Of a DNA stretch of 64,000 bases, positions 1,097 through 6,504 are shown one piece after another. The translations under genes were made by a program, and so were the position numbers. The stretch spans positions 124,001 to 188,000 of the forward strand of contig PLCN01000022.1 in assembly GCA_003134785.1 (NCBI GenBank), given 5' to 3'. The notes beneath the pieces are model-generated. The model ran no database searches, was not told the origin of the DNA, and saw only the letters and a program-made list of their open reading frames with translations. The stretch's first letter is position 1, and every line of letters begins with the position of its first letter. This DNA is from Spartobacteria bacterium (GTDB lineage Bacteria > Verrucomicrobiota > Verrucomicrobiia > Chthoniobacterales > UBA10450).

Positions 1097-2133
1097 AGAC
1101 GAAGATTTTTGGCGAGCACGATGAGTCGACCATCGCGCAAATTGATCGGTGTGTGGCGGCGGGCGGCGAGCGCGGGGTCTTGTGCGCGGATGGTCACAAG
1201 GGGTATGCGCAGCCGATCGGAGGTGTCGTGGCTTACAAAGACAAGATCTCGCTTTCGGGAGTTGGGTTCGATATTGCGTGCGGGAATCTTGCCATCCGCA
1301 CGGACGCGATGCGTTCGCAAATCGCGCCGGCGATGGAAGAGATCATGGACGAGGTGGTGCGGGACATTTCTTTCGGCATCGGGAGGACGAGCAAGACGCG
1401 GATCGACCATGAGCTGTTTGATGATCCGGCGTGGAGCTTGCGGCCATTGGCGGAGCTGAAGCAAAGTGCGGCGGCGCAACTCGGCACGGTCGGAGGCGGC
1501 AATCATTATGTGGATATTTTTGCGGACGAGGCGGACCGCATTTGGGTCGGCGTGCATTTTGGATCGAGAGGACTCGGACATAAGACGGCCACTTATTTTC
1601 TGAAGGAGGCGGGAGGCAAGGATGGAATGGATGTGCCGCCTACGGTGGTTTTGGATGCGTCGGCGCTCGGGGAGAATTATGTCGCGGCAATGACGTTGGT
1701 AGGACGTTACGCGTACGCAGGTCGTGAGGCGGTGGCGCGGCATGTGGTGCGCGGGATCTTGCGGGCGCAAGTCGTCGAGGAAATTCACAACCATCACAAC
1801 TTCGCCTGGCGGGAGGACCATGAGGGCGAGCGATATTGGGTCGTTCGAAAAGGCGCGACGCCGGCGTTTCCTGGTCAGAAAGGTTTTATCGGCGGGAGCA
1901 TGGGCGATGACGCTGTCATTGTCGAAGGCGTCGATTCGTCGATCTCGCGCGACGCGCTTTTTTCTACGGTTCATGGCGCGGGACGAATCATGTCGCGCAC
2001 AGCCGCGAAAGGGCGATTCGTAAAGATCGAAGGCAAACGTGTTCGAACCGACGGTCTCGTTAGGCATGACGAGATGATGGGGTGGATTGCCGATAAAGGC
2101 GTTGTCTTGCGTGGCGGTAGTGTCCTAATTTGA
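1093..2133 (+). CDS. rtcB: RtcB-type RNA ligase, 5' portion, 3' end cut off by a transposon
   Basis: RtcB joins 2',3'-cyclic-phosphate or 3'-phosphate RNA ends to 5'-OH ends using GTP and Mn2+. Expected ligand residues are visible: D60 and C63 in GVGFDIACGN, H138 in GGGNHY, H155 in VGVHFGSRG, histidines in IHNHHNF (231-236), and the guanylylated histidine motif HGAGR at 294. The frame is normal to codon 341, then enters the transposon repeat at 2116 and stops after five foreign residues. The remaining 48 codons lie at 6295-6441. The residual 346-aa product lacks the C-terminal segment, including the DPYKD end whose lysine in the archaeal enzyme contacts the guanine, so it is probably inactive. 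Coupled to the upstream 2H phosphoesterase by an ATGA overlap. Confidence 0.93.
   Translation: MKTKIFGEHDESTIAQIDRCVAAGGERGVLCADGHKGYAQPIGGVVAYKDKISLSGVGFDIACGNLAIRTDAMRSQIAPAMEEIMDEVVRDISFGIGRTSKTRIDHELFDDPAWSLRPLAELKQSAAAQLGTVGGGNHYVDIFADEADRIWVGVHFGSRGLGHKTATYFLKEAGGKDGMDVPPTVVLDASALGENYVAAMTLVGRYAYAGREAVARHVVRGILRAQVVEEIHNHHNFAWREDHEGERYWVVRKGATPAFPGQKGFIGGSMGDDAVIVEGVDSSISRDALFSTVHGAGRIMSRTAAKGRFVKIEGKRVRTDGLVRHDEMMGWIADKGVVLRGGSVLI
2108..2115. repeat. Target-site duplication, left copy
   Basis: TGCGTGGC immediately precedes the left inverted repeat and is repeated directly after the right one at 6287-6294. An 8-bp duplication suits IS1-family transposition. Confidence 0.93.
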
Positions 2134-2135
2134 AA
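2116..2135 (+). repeat. Left terminal inverted repeat (IRL)
   Basis: Reads ggtagtgtcctaatttgaaa. Its reverse complement matches 6267-6286 with one mismatch and 5829-5848 with one different mismatch. Confidence 0.95.
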
Positions 2136-2176
2136 TAATTTCTTTTTTGTTCAAGGCGGTCTATCTTCTCAGACGG

Positions 2177-2368
2177 ATGAAGATCATGGTCTATCTGAAG
2201 TATGAGCGTGGCGACGAAGATCGCGACCCCTCTAGCACATTCTCTGAATATGACGCGCTACAGGCGTCAGTGAAGGACGGGTTTCTCCGAGTAGTCGAAA
2301 GGGTTGGCCAGCGAATCGTTCACGTCTCGCTAGATCAAATTGCGATGTGGACAGAAGAGGAAAAATAA
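2177..2368 (+). CDS. Small hypothetical protein (transposon passenger)
   Basis: A 63-aa acidic frame starting MKIMVYLKYERGDED and ending DQIAMWTEEEK, the first gene inside the left end of the transposon. I do not recognise the family. A start at 2147 would add ten residues, but the ATG at 2177 follows GACGG and gives a more normal N-terminus. It may be a small regulatory or passenger protein; coding status is moderately likely from composition and position. Confidence 0.45.
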   Translation: MKIMVYLKYERGDEDRDPSSTFSEYDALQASVKDGFLRVVERVGQRIVHVSLDQIAMWTEEEK

Positions 2369-2382
2369 AAGGAATTTAGCCG

Positions 2383-3291
2383 CTAAACTGCGGCGTCAAA
2401 CTCCAATTCTGATTCAGGAATCCCCGTCCCGGTAGAGGACTGGTAATACTTCACGCCCTCCTTCTCGCCCGCATAGCCGATTATCGTAACCGGCTTGTCG
2501 TGGTCTTTATTTCGCCAGATCGCCTGTTTTGGATATTCCGACCGAACAATTTTCTTTTTCCAGAGCTTGAGCGTGTCCAACAGGAGATCAAAGTCAGAAT
2601 CCGACATTCCAACAGGGATGGGCGCGTCGCCTATGTCCAGCGGAATTGGAAGGTAGCGAAGATTCGATGTCATTGGTGGAGATGATTGACTAAAGGCATT
2701 TGCAAGCGACCTGTATGGGGGCTTCGCAAGTTCAGCAGCAGAATTTGGTAGAATCTCGTCGTCATTTTGTTGCGTAATTTTATCAGAGTCGAGCAGCTTT
2801 GCAAACGCAATTGTATCCAAATATTGATCGATAAGAGCTTTTCCAGCCGGCTCAGTAAAATGGAGCTCGAAAACCAAATAATCATGAATGGCTCCCTCGG
2901 ATGCTCCATCCGCACCGAATTTTTGCCATAGTTTTGCGTGAATGCTGGGTAGAAGAGCAGCTTGCTTAATAAGCTGATCGCGATTCGGTGCGGATGGATT
3001 CAAAAGCGTAACTGCCAACTCGGTTAATTTAACCTTCCGCGTGTGGCCGCTGCCTTCAGCGTCAAAAAGCCCGTATTTCCTCATTGCGGAGATCGCTAGG
3101 GGGCCGGTGCTGCTCTTTGCGCCAAATCCCAAGTCTGTAATCGCACGAGATACTAAGACAGATTGTCGGCGATCATGCTCCCAGAACGTCTTTGCTAGTT
3201 CAAGGGCCTTGCTCAAACCGATTGATGGATAATTTGGGCTTCGCTCCCGCTGCTTCGTTCCTGGGGAATTTTGGGTCGTTTTATCAGCCAT
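2383..3291 (-). CDS. Winged-helix-like hypothetical protein (DUF5343-like), transposon passenger
   Basis: A 302-aa soluble protein from the ATG at 3291. Residues ~25-100 (YPSIGLSKALELAKTFWEHD, then MRKYGLFDAEG and VKLTELAVTLL) have the layout of a two-copy winged-helix DNA-binding region, resembling DUF5343-type proteins as far as I recall the family. The middle (~110-160) is helical and the C-terminus (~240-302) looks like a small separate domain. It is transcribed away from the RNA locus at 3370-3670 and could regulate the element; that role is inferred. An alternative start at 3351 adds 20 residues with no obvious ribosome site. Confidence 0.62.
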   Translation of the reverse strand: MADKTTQNSPGTKQRERSPNYPSIGLSKALELAKTFWEHDRRQSVLVSRAITDLGFGAKSSTGPLAISAMRKYGLFDAEGSGHTRKVKLTELAVTLLNPSAPNRDQLIKQAALLPSIHAKLWQKFGADGASEGAIHDYLVFELHFTEPAGKALIDQYLDTIAFAKLLDSDKITQQNDDEILPNSAAELAKPPYRSLANAFSQSSPPMTSNLRYLPIPLDIGDAPIPVGMSDSDFDLLLDTLKLWKKKIVRSEYPKQAIWRNKDHDKPVTIIGYAGEKEGVKYYQSSTGTGIPESELEFDAAV

Positions 3292-3369
3292 AGGACAGAA
3301 ATTAGACCAATATTCGAGCCTGTCTAGATAAAAGTTTATATAAAACTCCAAGCTTTACATAAAAGTGAG

Positions 3370-3400
3370 TTGACAGTCCTATCAGATCATTCGATATTAT
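3370..3400 (+). promoter_or_regulatory. Sigma-70-like promoter for the structured RNA / tRNA-like locus
   Basis: A perfect TTGACA at 3370-3375 is followed by TATTAT at 3395-3400 (19-bp spacer) or GATATT at 3393-3398 (17-bp spacer). No plus-strand protein frame begins downstream until 3948. The expected transcript would start near 3407 and run through the hairpins and the tRNA-like sequence. Confidence 0.6.
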
Positions 3401-3406
3401 AGTCGA

Positions 3407-3597
3407 AGGATTGATTAAGGGTGATGATCAGAAGACATGCGTGCCCCGTGGTTGCGATGCGCCGGACGGCGGGGCGTGGTAGGCCGGGAGAGTAAATCCT
3501 TTGGGAAGAGGCCCATTCTCTCCCGGCCAACAGGCGCTAAAAGAGGGGCGAAACGTCCAATCCGTTCGCGCCCTCCAGTCACACTTAAAGTCAATTT
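3407..3597 (+). ncRNA. Putative structured non-coding RNA with three successive hairpins
   Basis: Three stems lie in tandem between the promoter and the tRNA-like sequence: GCCCCG...CGGGGC near 3442-3476; a perfect 11-bp stem ggccgggagag (3482-3492) with ctctcccggcc (3518-3528), enclosing a smaller TGGG/CCCA stem; and AGGGGCGAA paired with TTCGCGCCCT near 3543-3574 with one bulged base. No plausible protein is encoded. I do not recognise the RNA class. It may be the leader of the tRNA-like gene or an independent RNA of the transposon. Exact ends are not determined. Confidence 0.5.
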
Positions 3598-3670
3598 GGG
3601 GCCGTAGGTTTAACGGTAGAACCAGCAGGATTTACACCGGCAAGTGCGGGTCCAACTCCCGTCGGCTCCA
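3598..3670 (+). tRNA. tRNA-like gene, apparent anticodon UUA (ochre-reading), inside transposon
   Basis: A 73-nt cloverleaf can be drawn. The acceptor GGGGCCG pairs with CGGCTCC (3663-3669) and the discriminator is A3670. The D arm is GGTTT/GAACC around a canonical AACGGTA loop. The anticodon arm is GCAGG-ATTTACA-CCGGC with one A/G mismatch, a 4-nt variable loop follows, and the T arm is GCGGG-TCCAACT-CCCGT. The loop places TTA at 34-36, which would read UAA. C at 37 and C at 55 are unusual, so it may be a tRNA mimic or a decaying gene. CCA is not encoded beyond the acceptor. Confidence 0.55.
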
Positions 3671-3673
3671 TCT

Positions 3674-3693
3674 GACTTTCTGTGCTACATAAT
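3674..3693 (-). repeat. 20-bp repeat, third copy, inverted
   Basis: Reverse complement reads attatgtagcacagaaagtc, matching the two direct copies at 3880 and 3913 in 17 of 20 positions or nearly so (core TGTAGCACA.AAAGTC). It lies 3 bp after the tRNA-like gene and just past the stop of the RHH-like gene, so that gene is bracketed by inverted copies. Confidence 0.75.
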
Positions 3694-3699
3694 CTCATA

Positions 3700-3924
3700 T
3701 CACGCTGCATCAATCAATGTCTTTCTCACCCAAACCGGCAATTTGTTTCCGGCTCGTTTTGCCGCTGCCTCAAATCGACGGAGTTCATCCTGGGAAACGC
3801 GAGCACGGAGAACGTGTTCCTTAGCGGCCCCAGCCGGCAGTTTTGGGCGACCGAGGATTACGGTTTTTCTAGATTTTCTTTTCTGTAGCACAAAAAGTCT
3901 TGACCTAATATATTTCTGTAGCAC
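3700..3924 (-). CDS. Ribbon-helix-helix-like DNA-binding protein (MobC/antitoxin type)
   Basis: A 74-aa basic protein. The core GRPKLPAGAAKEHVLRARVS, then DELRRFEAAAKRAGN and LPVWVRKTLIDAA, has the strand-helix-helix layout of ribbon-helix-helix repressors and MobC-like relaxosome proteins. The start is GTG at 3924; a second in-frame GTG at 3891 would give 63 residues. It is divergent from the transposase, and the 20-bp repeats lie across the shared promoter. A role as repressor of the transposase is therefore likely but inferred. Confidence 0.62.
   Translation of the reverse strand: MLQKYIRSRLFVLQKRKSRKTVILGRPKLPAGAAKEHVLRARVSQDELRRFEAAAKRAGNKLPVWVRKTLIDAA
3880..3899 (+). repeat. 20-bp direct repeat copy 1, possible operator
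   Basis: tttctgtagcacaaaaagtc, ending exactly where the putative -35 TTGACC (3900-3905) of the transposase begins. Spaced 33 bp (about three helical turns) from copy 2. Confidence 0.75.
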
Positions 3925-3927
3925 AAT
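3900..3927 (+). promoter_or_regulatory. Putative transposase promoter overlapped by operators
   Basis: TTGACC at 3900-3905, a 16-bp spacer, then CACAAT at 3922-3927 inside repeat copy 2. The transposase ATG follows at 3948. A repressor on the repeats would cover both promoter boxes. Confidence 0.45.
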
Positions 3928-3932
3928 AAGTC
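3913..3932 (+). repeat. 20-bp direct repeat copy 2, possible operator
   Basis: tttctgtagcacaataagtc, 19/20 identical to copy 1 at 3880-3899. Confidence 0.75.
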
Positions 3933-3947
3933 GAGAAAAGAAATCTT

Positions 3948-4772
3948 ATGGCAAACATCCTCAGCAAAGAAAAACAGATCGCGGTGATTAGTGCACTGGC
4001 AGAGGGAAATTCAATCCGATCAATCGAGCGCATGACGGAAATCCATCGCGATACGATCATGCGCCTTGGTGTGCGCGTCGGCGAAACCTGCCACCAAATC
4101 CTCGATCAGAAAATGCGTGGATTGAATTGCTCTCGCATTGAGATTGATGAGTTGTGGGGATTCATCGGCAAGAAAAAGTTTCATGCTAATCGCGCAGATC
4201 GCGCTGAGGGACTTGGGGACGTTTGGACTTTCCTGAGCATTGACCCCGTTACAAAAATCATTCCTTCCTACGTTGTGGGAAAGCGCGACCGATATCATGC
4301 AACGGTGTTCTTGGAAGATTTGGCATCACGTCTCAACAATCGGATTCAGCTTTCGAGTGATGCAATGAACGCATATCCCGATTCAGTCGAACGAGCGTTT
4401 GGCGCTGACATTGATTACGGACAGATCGTAAAGGAGTATTCATCCCCGACCGTGGAAGACCAGCGTAAGTACAGCCCCGCGACGCTGAGCGCCGTGTACA
4501 AGACCGCGATTGTCGGCGACCCGAATCCTGACTTGGTTTGCACGTCGTACATCGAAAGGGCGAACCTCACGATGCGGACACATTGCAAACGTCTCGCTCG
4601 TCTCACGCTGGCGTTCTCGAAAAAACTCCACAACTTCAAGGCCGCAATCGCGCTCAACGTCGCGTATTACAATCTTGTGAAAACCCACGGCACGCTCCGT
4701 TGCACGCCCGCAATGGCCGCTGGCGTCGAGAGCAGTGCGTGGACGATTGCCGATCTAGTCGATGCCTCCTAA
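3948..4772 (+). CDS. IS1-family-like DDE transposase
   Basis: A 274-aa single-frame transposase. Residues ~8-45 form a helix-turn-helix (LAEGNSIRSIERMTEIHRDT). Likely DDE residues are D67 in IDELWGFIGKK, D138 in LSSDAMNAYPDSV and E203 in YIERANLTMR, followed by the basic LARLTLAFSKKLHN segment seen in IS1-type enzymes. Unlike classical IS1 there is no separate InsA zinc-finger frame and no frameshift. It would act on the 20-bp ends at 2116 and 6267. Its last codons overlap the start of the next gene (ATG at 4762), implying coupled translation. Confidence 0.9.
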   Translation: MANILSKEKQIAVISALAEGNSIRSIERMTEIHRDTIMRLGVRVGETCHQILDQKMRGLNCSRIEIDELWGFIGKKKFHANRADRAEGLGDVWTFLSIDPVTKIIPSYVVGKRDRYHATVFLEDLASRLNNRIQLSSDAMNAYPDSVERAFGADIDYGQIVKEYSSPTVEDQRKYSPATLSAVYKTAIVGDPNPDLVCTSYIERANLTMRTHCKRLARLTLAFSKKLHNFKAAIALNVAYYNLVKTHGTLRCTPAMAAGVESSAWTIADLVDAS

Positions 4773-5076
4773 GAACGTCCAGAGCCTACAGAGTGCGATC
4801 AAAGCGATGCATGGATGCGGTTCGCGATATGTAGAATCTGTCCCGGTGCATGAAGTGTTTCATGGACAGACTGCGTGGCAAGGAACGGTCGAAGTTTTCG
4901 AGTTGATCGGCCACGTGAAAGCGAAGCGGGCATACACGTGGCAATATGACGAAGGCAAGGACACAAAAACGATCTCTGTTCTTGAAATTCCACCTGTAAA
5001 CTCTCCTCAAAGTGCTGTGAGAGTGGCAATTGCATCCAAAGGGAAAAATTCGTACGAAAGGGACAAAAATGCTTGA
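4762..5076 (+). CDS. Hypothetical protein coupled to transposase
   Basis: A 104-aa protein whose ATG lies 11 bp inside the transposase gene. Features seen: YVESVPVHEVFHGQTAWQG, GHVKAKRAYTW, then SVLEIPPVNSPQSAVRVAI. I recall similar ~100-aa proteins of unknown function in proteobacterial genomes, often near mobile DNA, but cannot name a domain. The overlap suggests co-expression with the transposase; a role as transposition accessory or an independent passenger is equally possible. Confidence 0.65.
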   Translation: MPPKNVQSLQSAIKAMHGCGSRYVESVPVHEVFHGQTAWQGTVEVFELIGHVKAKRAYTWQYDEGKDTKTISVLEIPPVNSPQSAVRVAIASKGKNSYERDKNA

Positions 5077-5143
5077 ACAAGGCGTACGCAATGCTAGTCT
5101 AATGCTTACCTTTAACCGCTACGCCAGTAGGCTGGCACACTCT

Positions 5144-5180
5144 AAACCCCTGAGTCGCTTCGGCGGCTTGGGGGTTTTTG
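5144..5180 (+). terminator. Rho-independent terminator after the transposase operon
   Basis: Stem AACCCC / GGGGTT plus AGTCGC / GCGGCT closed by a TTCG tetraloop, followed by a T-rich run on the plus strand. It lies between the transposase operon and the NYN gene, separating their transcription. Confidence 0.85.
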
Positions 5181-5189
5181 TTTTGCCCC

Positions 5190-5828
5190 ATGAAAGTAGC
5201 AATATTGATTGACGGAGAGTGGTTCAGAATTGCTCTATCCGAACGGCTCGGAGCGGCCCTGAAACCGCATGGCGTAACCGCAGAAGTCGTCCATAAGAAC
5301 GCGCTGCTTGCTGTTCAAAAAGGAGAGTCCGTTACTCGAATCTTTTATTACGATTCCGTGCCGCACGTGGGGAAAACCAGAAATCCAATTAGCAAGAAAT
5401 CTGTTCCCTGCATTAGCCCAGAGAAGGTTGACGCGCGCCATCGCTTTTTCCACGAACTTGGACAGATGCCGCTGATTGCGCTCAGGCGCGGGGTCGTCAA
5501 GCCCAGAGGATGGGTACTGCGAATGGCCTACGTTAAAGAAATGCTAAAGGGCGGCAAGGCACGGCCGTTAACCGCCGATGATGTTACCCTCTCGATGACA
5601 CAAAAAGGGGTTGATATGCGTATCGGGATTGATGTCGCCACATTGTCCCTCAAGAGGCAGGTGGATCGAATAATCCTGATTTCTGGCGATCTGGATATGA
5701 TTCCGGCTATGAAATTGGCAAGACGTGAAGGTGTTCAGGTGGCAATGGTCCAATTAGATAGAAGAAAAATTTCAACTGAACTCGTCGAGGATGCTGATTT
5801 TATTCGCACCATCACTCCGATTCTCTGA
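5190..5828 (+). CDS. NYN-domain (PIN-like, DUF88/LabA-type) putative ribonuclease
   Basis: A 212-aa protein starting MKVAILIDGEWF. The NYN/PIN-like acidic residues appear in order: D8 in the first strand, D142/D148 in KGVDMRIGIDVATLS, and D167/D169 in LISGDLDMIPA. DUF88/NYN proteins are metal-dependent RNA nucleases or regulators; RNA targets here are unknown. The ATG at 5190 lies just after the terminator, leaving no clear promoter in between, so it may depend on read-through or on the terminator region. Its TGA directly touches the internal inverted repeat at 5829, marking it as an original passenger of the element. Confidence 0.85.
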   Translation: MKVAILIDGEWFRIALSERLGAALKPHGVTAEVVHKNALLAVQKGESVTRIFYYDSVPHVGKTRNPISKKSVPCISPEKVDARHRFFHELGQMPLIALRRGVVKPRGWVLRMAYVKEMLKGGKARPLTADDVTLSMTQKGVDMRIGIDVATLSLKRQVDRIILISGDLDMIPAMKLARREGVQVAMVQLDRRKISTELVEDADFIRTITPIL

Positions 5829-5848
5829 TTTCAAATTAAGACACTACC
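5829..5848 (-). repeat. Internal second copy of the right inverted repeat
   Basis: tttcaaattaagacactacc; its reverse complement matches IRL 2116-2135 in 19 of 20 positions, as well as the outermost IRR does. It begins at the base after the NYN stop codon, so a shorter element 2116-5848 is structurally complete. Confidence 0.92.
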
Positions 5849-5930
5849 TGTTTTGTCCCTCTTTCCCTGGCAGCGAGTCAAAATGATTACGACTTTAGCT
5901 ACGACTTTCTGACTGCCTCTCGCCTGAATC

Positions 5931-6257
5931 GTGGCTAAGGTCTTTAAATTCCGAAGTCGGTTTGTCGATTTTTTGGTCTATGTCACGTTCGATATGGATG
6001 CTTACCGCCGAGGCGAAATCCCTAGCAATCAGCCAACCGTGCTTTGCGATGGGAAGCCTACAGATGTAATTCTTCCCGCTTACAAAGCATGGATGCACTC
6101 CGTCATGTCGGAGATAGCAAAGCGGATCGACGAAGAAATTGTGTACTCTCTGCCCATTACGCTTGAGCCGAATCGCAATACCCCAGCGAGCAATTCTGAG
6201 GTTTGGATATACTATCCAGATGGCAACTATGAGCGTGCCAAAGAACCGCCGAATTGA
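5931..6257 (+). CDS. Hypothetical protein in the outer module of the transposon
   Basis: A 108-aa frame from GTG at 5931 (or 87 aa from ATG 5994), with sequence such as VYVTFDMDAYRRGEIPSNQP and VWIYYPDGNYERAKEPPN. No family recognised. It is the only frame of sensible composition between the internal repeat (5848) and the outermost repeat (6267), and it ends 10 bp before that repeat, like the NYN gene before its own. No strong ribosome site precedes either start. Confidence 0.45.
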   Translation: MAKVFKFRSRFVDFLVYVTFDMDAYRRGEIPSNQPTVLCDGKPTDVILPAYKAWMHSVMSEIAKRIDEEIVYSLPITLEPNRNTPASNSEVWIYYPDGNYERAKEPPN

Positions 6258-6266
6258 ATCGAGCGC

Positions 6267-6286
6267 TTTCAAATTAGGACACGACC
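6267..6286 (-). repeat. Right terminal inverted repeat (IRR)
   Basis: tttcaaattaggacacgacc, inverted match to IRL with one mismatch, followed directly by the TGCGTGGC duplication. Confidence 0.95.
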
Positions 6287-6294
6287 TGCGTGGC
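6287..6294. repeat. Target-site duplication, right copy
   Basis: TGCGTGGC, identical to 2108-2115. Confidence 0.93.
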
Positions 6295-6441
6295 GGCGAT
6301 CTCGACGAAGCGCCACAAGCTTATCGGCGATTGCCGGATGTGCTCGACGCACATGCGGGGACAATCCGGATTTTGCACACCCTGACGCCGCTGGGTGTGG
6401 CGATGGCGGGACGCAACGTCGTGGACCCGTACAAAGACTGA
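6295..6441 (+). pseudogene. rtcB: 3' fragment of rtcB severed by the transposon
   Basis: Encodes GDLDEAPQAYRRLPDVLDAH, then AGTIRILHTLTPLGVAMAG and DPYKD-stop, which is the usual RtcB C-terminus. In phase with the 5' part once 2116-6294 is removed (codon 341 is followed directly by this fragment). No start codon or promoter of its own is evident. Confidence 0.93.
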
Positions 6442-6504
6442 CTGTAGCGGCGGTCTATGACCGCCGGGCTTTGGGATTTCGGCGGTCATAGACCGCCGCT
6501 GCAG
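6442..6504. repeat. Palindromic intergenic repeat, family A (copy 1)
   Basis: Arms ctgtagcggcggtctatgac... and its inverse around a 14-bp spacer; starts at the base after the rtcB stop. The same arms recur at 48778, 49809 and 61564. Confidence 0.9.

Follow-up and report, generated by a model that had tools for sequence, protein, structure and literature searches.

What kind of RNA does an insertion element carry beside its transposase, and what might it do there? The question is raised by a 64,000-nt stretch of a Spartobacteria bacterium genome (GCA_003134785.1, PLCN01000022.1:124,001-188,000, forward strand), referred to here as the window, whose own numbering is used for all coordinates below. 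A preliminary description of this DNA marked a promoter, three consecutive stems and a terminal cloverleaf as a candidate new RNA belonging to a transposon, lying beside the transposase and resembling no known RNA class. All of these parts are present, and the region does lie inside a transposon, of the IS1 family. The cloverleaf at its 3' end belongs to a known class: it is an irregular transfer RNA (tRNA) with an ochre anticodon and the identity set for alanine. With confidence evenly divided, we read the RNA as a regulated suppressor of ochre codons, a tRNA borne by the transposon and charged with alanine.

An irregular tRNA with an ochre anticodon in an IS1-family transposon

The transposon occupies 4,171 bp (2116-6286), is bounded by terminal inverted repeats (GGTAGTGTCCTAATTTGAAA) and is flanked by an 8-bp target duplication (TGCGTGGC). 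It interrupts the host gene rtcB, which encodes an RNA ligase (1060-2115 and 6295-6441); removal of the element together with one copy of the duplication restores an intact 400-codon frame, and the uninterrupted site is found in seven genomes of the same genus. The RNA belongs to this transposon and its mapped insertion. A core composed of the RNA, a small convergent gene of the ribbon-helix-helix type, the transposase and an overlapping open reading frame (ORF2) also occurs with clear ends in the elements G002, G007 and G043/G074. Their terminal repeats begin with GGT, as in the window; the target duplication is GGATATCG in G002 and AAAAAAAT in G007, and matches at 7 of 8 positions in G043. 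A DDE transposase, GGT-type terminal repeats and the 8-bp duplication are shared with the IS1 family, whereas the tRNA gene, the convergent ribbon-helix-helix gene, ORF2, the variable cargo and a transposase encoded by a single ORF set the window element apart.

The cloverleaf (3598-3670) is contiguous and was labeled tRNA-Stop(TTA) by ARAGORN, which found no transfer-messenger RNA (tmRNA) in the window; the earlier exclusion of tmRNA holds. Like tmRNA, the RNA has the alanine identity pair G3:U70 and a tRNA-like end, but it lacks split acceptor halves around an mRNA domain, and its anticodon arm carries a stop anticodon. The Rfam tRNA model (RF00005) matches the cloverleaf with 39.1 bits, exceeding the gathering score of 29, whether the search covers a short stretch or the entire genome; a fast gathering scan of the entire window missed it. 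With this model the host tRNAs score 48-78 bits and a relative (L075) 27.4 bits. The claim that the RNA fits no known class cannot stand for this domain, whose Rfam match is among the outcomes that the preliminary description itself named as refuting. The tRNA has a 7-bp acceptor stem with a 5-bp T-stem (a 7/5 branch) and a short variable loop. The region from 3400 to 3680 folds with -114.7 kcal/mol (z = -3.64 against dinucleotide shuffles), better than all 200 shuffles.

Homologues were gathered first as DNA relatives, then with a covariance model and finally at loci that the transposase located among 84,980 species genomes and among viral contigs. An alignment of ten regular members provided the covariance check that the preliminary description had proposed, and the tRNA fold is supported by covariation. 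Standard pairs fill 96.4% of cells (84.4% in shuffles), changes on both sides occur at 7 of 14 pairs (2.9 in shuffles), and the covariation score is 0.357, whereas shuffles give 0.124 and slid controls no more than 0.121. All ten members have G:U at pair 3:70 while acceptor pairs 4, 5 and 6 covary; because this invariant G:U would be an A:C mismatch on the opposite strand, the RNA corresponds to the plus strand. By reading of the sequences, the anticodon stem covaries as well (G43-type, C-G versus G-C). Between the window and G043, the RNA is better conserved than the adjoining genes.

The anticodon of alanine-type members was read from the sequences, with near-duplicates counted once. Twenty of 24 match a stop codon, with UUA in 17 and CUA (amber) in 3, and the remainder are AUA (2) and UUC (2). 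The loop core is UNUACA, and U33 is retained in nearly all members; the register is less certain for members with a 9-nt loop. A register shifted by one, giving Val(UAC), was rejected on inspection, since the CUA and AUA members would then lack U33 and the closing GG/CC pairs would be broken; ARAGORN names the RNA of one relative (L079) tRNA-Val. The alanine identity set, G3:U70 with A73, is present in the window tRNA. Among 40 host tRNAs tested, G3:U70 occurs in three, all of them tRNA-Ala, and the transposon tRNA shares G1:C72, G2:C71, G3:U70, G4:C69 and A73 with these three.

Recurrence beside related transposases and a shared box

The same RNA lies 100-460 nt from the transposase in related IS1 elements. 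Most carriers are metagenome-assembled genomes (MAGs), and they include Verrucomicrobia MAGs, a Planctomycetota MAG (L101), a Chloroflexi MAG (L099) and IMG/VR contigs; a DNA search of phage and plasmid collections returned no homologues. On a quick tree of transposase loci, an alanine-type tRNA is present at at least 25 of 57 loci across deep branches, a lower bound given that some contigs stop nearby and the search was imperfect; the count includes weak model scores (L126, L101 and L097; E 0.13-0.24), which are backed by position, G3:U70 and loop. Other odd tRNAs occur at five more loci. A strict, model-free scan recovered odd tRNAs at 18 loci, 97-645 nt from the transposase start, and farther out at the same loci it found a single tRNA, an ordinary one, in 249.5 kb.

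The position is also taken by other tRNA bodies. Two Myxococcales loci (L094, 2135-2315, and L103, 3556-3736) each carry two tandem long-arm tRNAs, one Leu-like (loop CUUUAAA) and one Ser-like (CUUUACA), both with anticodon UUA and well-paired anticodon stems. An IMG/VR contig (L122) has a Ser-like tRNA with the loop AUUUACA (UUA) before a repressor-like gene, and a Planctomycetota MAG (L113) has a Ser-like tRNA with anticodon UAU about 645 nt before the transposase; both have the 9/3 form, seen by strict scan in L113 and by eye in L122. Charging by AlaRS, LeuRS and SerRS, the alanyl-, leucyl- and seryl-tRNA synthetases, is independent of the anticodon, and stop anticodons on Ala-, Leu- and Ser-type bodies fit suppression because these enzymes ignore it. 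If the Leu- and Ser-type tRNAs are independent replacements that kept the anticodon, then what the element needs would be the reading of a stop codon and not a particular amino acid. tRNAs with anticodon UCC also precede IS1-type transposases (L118, 3687-3773; L119, 3649-3723; and the second tRNA of L089, ~810-915); those of L118 and L089 are Leu-like, and all three are possible missense suppressors. L117 has an ordinary-looking tRNA-Thr at the equivalent place.

Directly behind the window tRNA lies a box of about 9 bases, an inverted copy of two boxes at the transposase promoter (Table 1). Its sequence varies among elements (TGTAGCACA, TGTAATACA, CGTATAC and others) and the copies agree inside each element; about ten elements have such a box in common between the flank 3' of the tRNA and the promoter of the transposase, with p ≤ 0.02 in 9 of 17 loci. 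The shared box links the RNA with control of the transposon itself and argues against random cargo. The small ribbon-helix-helix protein is the candidate ligand of the boxes. In L108 and L087 the tRNA is on the opposite strand relative to the transposase, yet by inspection it is still convergent with the repressor gene.

Leader and neighboring genes

The promoter-like site ahead of the RNA combines a -35 box (TTGACA, 3370-3375) with a -10 box that can be read as GATATT (3393-3398, 17-nt spacing) or TATTAT (3395-3400, 19-nt spacing). In L099 and L124, too, the sequence immediately ahead of the homologous RNA shows strong consensus promoters. The leader has no match to an Rfam family, and the word "new" is apt for it and for its combination with the tRNA, though not for the 3' tRNA domain. 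It is the variable part of the RNA: members such as L099 and L124 have a single hairpin and the tRNA. tRNA leaders are normally removed by RNase P, so the form of about 260 nt may not be the mature product. Pairing of the anticodon loop with its own leader, suggested by 8-nt matches in the window and in G043, showed no excess over shuffles in 20 members, and a conserved leader peptide was discarded on inspection because reading frames vary among elements. A second tRNA-like fold without a D-arm lies within the leader of four elements (L075, 1213-1290; L102, 3568-3644; L090, 3569-3644; L079, 3555-3631). Its loops are CUCCAAA or UUCCAA, compensatory changes occur in 7 of 21 predicted pairs in the four sequences, and it has no Rfam match in L075 or L090.

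The transposase also matches the NF033558 model (59.4 bits, E = 4.3e-16), under the curated equivalog cut-off of 100. ORF2, which encodes about 100 residues and starts on the transposase stop codon, is present at 43 of 62 transposase loci, including L102, L071 and L082. Structure prediction confidently gives its product an alpha-beta4-alpha fold; it has no Pfam relative and no match in the PDB at E ≤ 0.001. An RNA-binding role akin to a double-stranded RNA-binding domain was dropped in view of this fold and the lack of a PDB match, and ORF2 is a putative accessory protein of these IS1 elements. Homologues of the small convergent gene occur at 25 loci. No Pfam match was found for the 322-aa protein.

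Beyond the inner repeat copy, the final ~440 bp of the element (with a 108-aa ORF, 5931-6257) have the look of an added end or nested piece. Directly behind rtcB lies a perfect 21-nt inverted repeat with a 13-nt loop (6446-6500), perhaps a terminator. The host is without this copy of rtcB while bearing a transposon with an odd tRNA, which is probably a coincidence.

Table 1. Features of the transposon and its flanks (window positions)
Feature	Position	Strand	Remarks
Left target duplication copy, 8 bp	2108..2115	none	TGCGTGGC
Left terminal inverted repeat	2116..2136	+	GGTAGTGTCCTAATTTGAAAT
73-aa ORF, cargo	2147..2368	+	No homologue among compared elements
322-aa protein, divergent from RNA	2383..3351	-	Homologues in 9 other element loci
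Promoter-like TTGACA-17-GATATT of RNA	3370..3398	+	Consensus match alone
Leader hairpin 1	3440..3478	+	Predicted by folding
Leader hairpin 2	3482..3528	+	Stem sequence same in G002, loop different
Leader hairpin 3	3543..3575	+	G002 stem differs yet pairs, around invariant loop ACGUCCAAUCCGU
Irregular tRNA	3598..3670	+	Acceptor 3598-3604/3663-3669 (G3:U70), A73 at 3670, T-arm 3646-3662
Anticodon TTA (UUA, ochre)	3632..3634	+	Within loop ATTTACA (3630-3636)
Box behind tRNA	3681..3689	none	TGTGCTACA, inverted copy of transposase-promoter boxes
Small ribbon-helix-helix-like protein, convergent with RNA	3700..3924	-	Weak NikA-like Pfam match under cut-off
Upstream box at transposase promoter	3884..3892	none	TGTAGCACA
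Second box, overlapping transposase promoter	3917..3925	none	TGTAGCACA; promoter TTGACC 3900, CACAAT to 3927
IS1-family transposase, 274 aa	3948..4772	+	PF03400, 35.1 bits (cut-off 24.1)
ORF2, 104 aa	4762..5076	+	Start overlaps transposase stop
NYN-domain cargo protein	5178..5828	+	No homologue among other compared elements
Inner copy of terminal repeat	5828..5848	-	One mismatch
Right terminal inverted repeat	6267..6286	-	
Right target duplication copy, 8 bp	6287..6294	none	TGCGTGGC

A possible suppressor, mimic or restrained toxin

In the mechanism that we propose, the regulatory core beside the transposase would be a convergent pair, the irregular tRNA gene and the gene for a small ribbon-helix-helix repressor. 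The tRNA would be transcribed from its own promoter behind the hairpin leader, trimmed like other tRNAs and supplied with CCA. G3:U70 would direct charging with alanine, which is possible despite the ochre anticodon because AlaRS ignores the anticodon, and the charged tRNA would bring alanine to UAA stop codons as a nonsense (ochre) suppressor. A repressor bound to the box at the tRNA 3' end and to the two boxes at the transposase promoter would set tRNA and transposase output jointly, and temporary read-through of host stop codons would go with derepression of the element, presumably to its benefit. Because no gene of the element needs suppression, any target would be in trans and most likely in the host. 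In Escherichia coli, alanine or serine is indeed inserted by natural suppressor-like tRNAs that have G3:U70 and stems of the 9/3 or 8/4 form (PMC7609411).

Several observations weigh against suppression. The tRNA is missing from roughly half the related elements, and the AUA and UUC anticodons read no stop codon. No consistently recoded gene with in-frame UAA or UAG was found among the transposase, ORF2, repressor and upstream helix-turn-helix genes; single in-frame stops in element genes have the look of decay, and other signals are noise from alternative frames. Among the element's own stops, UAA is neither avoided nor favored when elements with and without the tRNA are compared. Read-through from the transposase into ORF2 as a fusion was rejected, as ORF2 lies in a different frame and the choice of stop, UAA or UGA, does not follow the anticodon. 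The anticodon stem has one internal mismatch in most members, and eleven further members, about half, have lost the regular D-arm. Canonical loop residues (U55, a purine at 37, G18G19) are not kept: the window tRNA has C55 and C37, and the D-loop GG that it retains is gone in G043. With C37, C55, the mismatched stem and the D-arm losses, decoding may be weak, and some irregular allo-tRNA-like RNAs are inactive in translation or uncharged in E. coli (PMC7609411).

The main rival builds on these irregularities. In this view the RNA is a non-decoding tRNA mimic that AlaRS, EF-Tu or a ribosome whose A site contains UAA would charge or bind, and that serves, in the manner of a regulatory RNA, as a decoy or sensor coupling element activity to translation. 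C37, the mismatched anticodon stem and the lost D-arms would suit such a mimic, as would the absence from the element of any UAA needing suppression, the inactivity of some allo-like tRNAs in E. coli (PMC7609411), and a loop core, UNUACA, that is conserved past the anticodon triplet and tolerates AUA and UUC variants. The recurrence of stop anticodons on Leu- and Ser-type bodies that are well formed and have paired stems is what suppression predicts, and we regard the mimic as a serious but doubtful candidate. A toxin-antitoxin-like arrangement, in which a harmful suppressor tRNA is restrained by the convergent repressor gene, through its protein and an antisense transcript, and loss of the element is punished, overlaps both of these readings, and the confidences do not sum to one. 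The convergence of tRNA and ribbon-helix-helix genes is kept in most elements, even where the pair is flipped (L108, L087), and in several elements a T-run on the opposite strand, after the hairpin preceding the tRNA, could end the repressor transcript past the tRNA; a toxin-antitoxin link was earlier proposed for irregular allo-tRNAs (PMC7609411). Against it, several elements (L071, L082, L085) retain the repressor but not the tRNA, and we rate this arrangement as rather unlikely.

The remaining explanations are far less probable. That the tRNA fold is a processing or stability device, with an RNase P cut at 3598 freeing a small RNA from the leader, would account for the strong hairpins and for the structure of hairpin 3 kept between two elements; it is improbable given that the leader is the variable part, reduced to one hairpin in L099 and L124, and that the conserved anticodon and alanine identity would be unneeded. 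Systems of the IS110 and IS200/605 type have an RNA beside the transposase, as here, and a guide or bridge RNA would place the element among them. Roughly half the related elements work without the RNA, the transposase is of the DDE type with ordinary inverted repeats and 8-bp duplications, and conservation is centered on tRNA features, all of which makes a guide function very hard to credit. A captured host tRNA in decay would explain the irregular arms and the score below that of host tRNAs, and is contradicted by the compensatory changes, the invariant G3:U70 and the conservation of the RNA beyond that of its neighboring genes; we give this almost no weight. Readings as a self T-box, bridge RNA or tmRNA were not supported.

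In its structure and its identity the irregular suppressor-type tRNA represents a new type, and it is fixed in a defined transposon. The allo-tRNAs, irregular tRNAs found in Acidobacteria and in metagenomes from soil, were reported by Mukai et al. 2017 (cited in PMC7609411); soil bacteria have been known since 2017 to contain such tRNAs, with no proven role, and a link to transposable elements is only suggested (PMC7609411). As described there, they share with the window RNA an identity for synthetases blind to the anticodon, anticodons that include ochre and, in some, G3:U70, and L113 and L122 resemble 9/3 allo-tRNAs beside IS1-type transposases. The window RNA differs in its 7/5 branch (not the 12-bp branch of 8/4 or 9/3 form), its lack of a long variable arm, the alanine rather than serine identity and mostly ochre or amber anticodons of its family, and its defined place in an end-mapped transposon. 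Nonsense suppressor tRNAs, of the laboratory supB/supC type or from phages, likewise join a stop anticodon to a tRNA body that a synthetase of the host can recognize; unlike them, the window RNA resides on an insertion element with no recoded gene and has C37 and irregular arms. A search of open papers for suppressor tRNAs in insertion sequences turned up nothing closer, and the 2017 original may give more context.

A wider proposal, which we advance tentatively and with less than even confidence, is a mobile recoding module in a widespread transposon lineage, by which the host would read UAA (UAG for some members) as alanine under a repressor common to the transposase. If this is true, host termination would be altered when the element wakes. 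Irregular tRNAs gain here a defined home, with an end-mapped transposon, a neighbor gene and a stop anticodon that both recur, and an operator-like box that is shared, and this opens their role to direct tests. Should the tRNA work, insertion elements could move regulated stop-codon suppression between bacteria.
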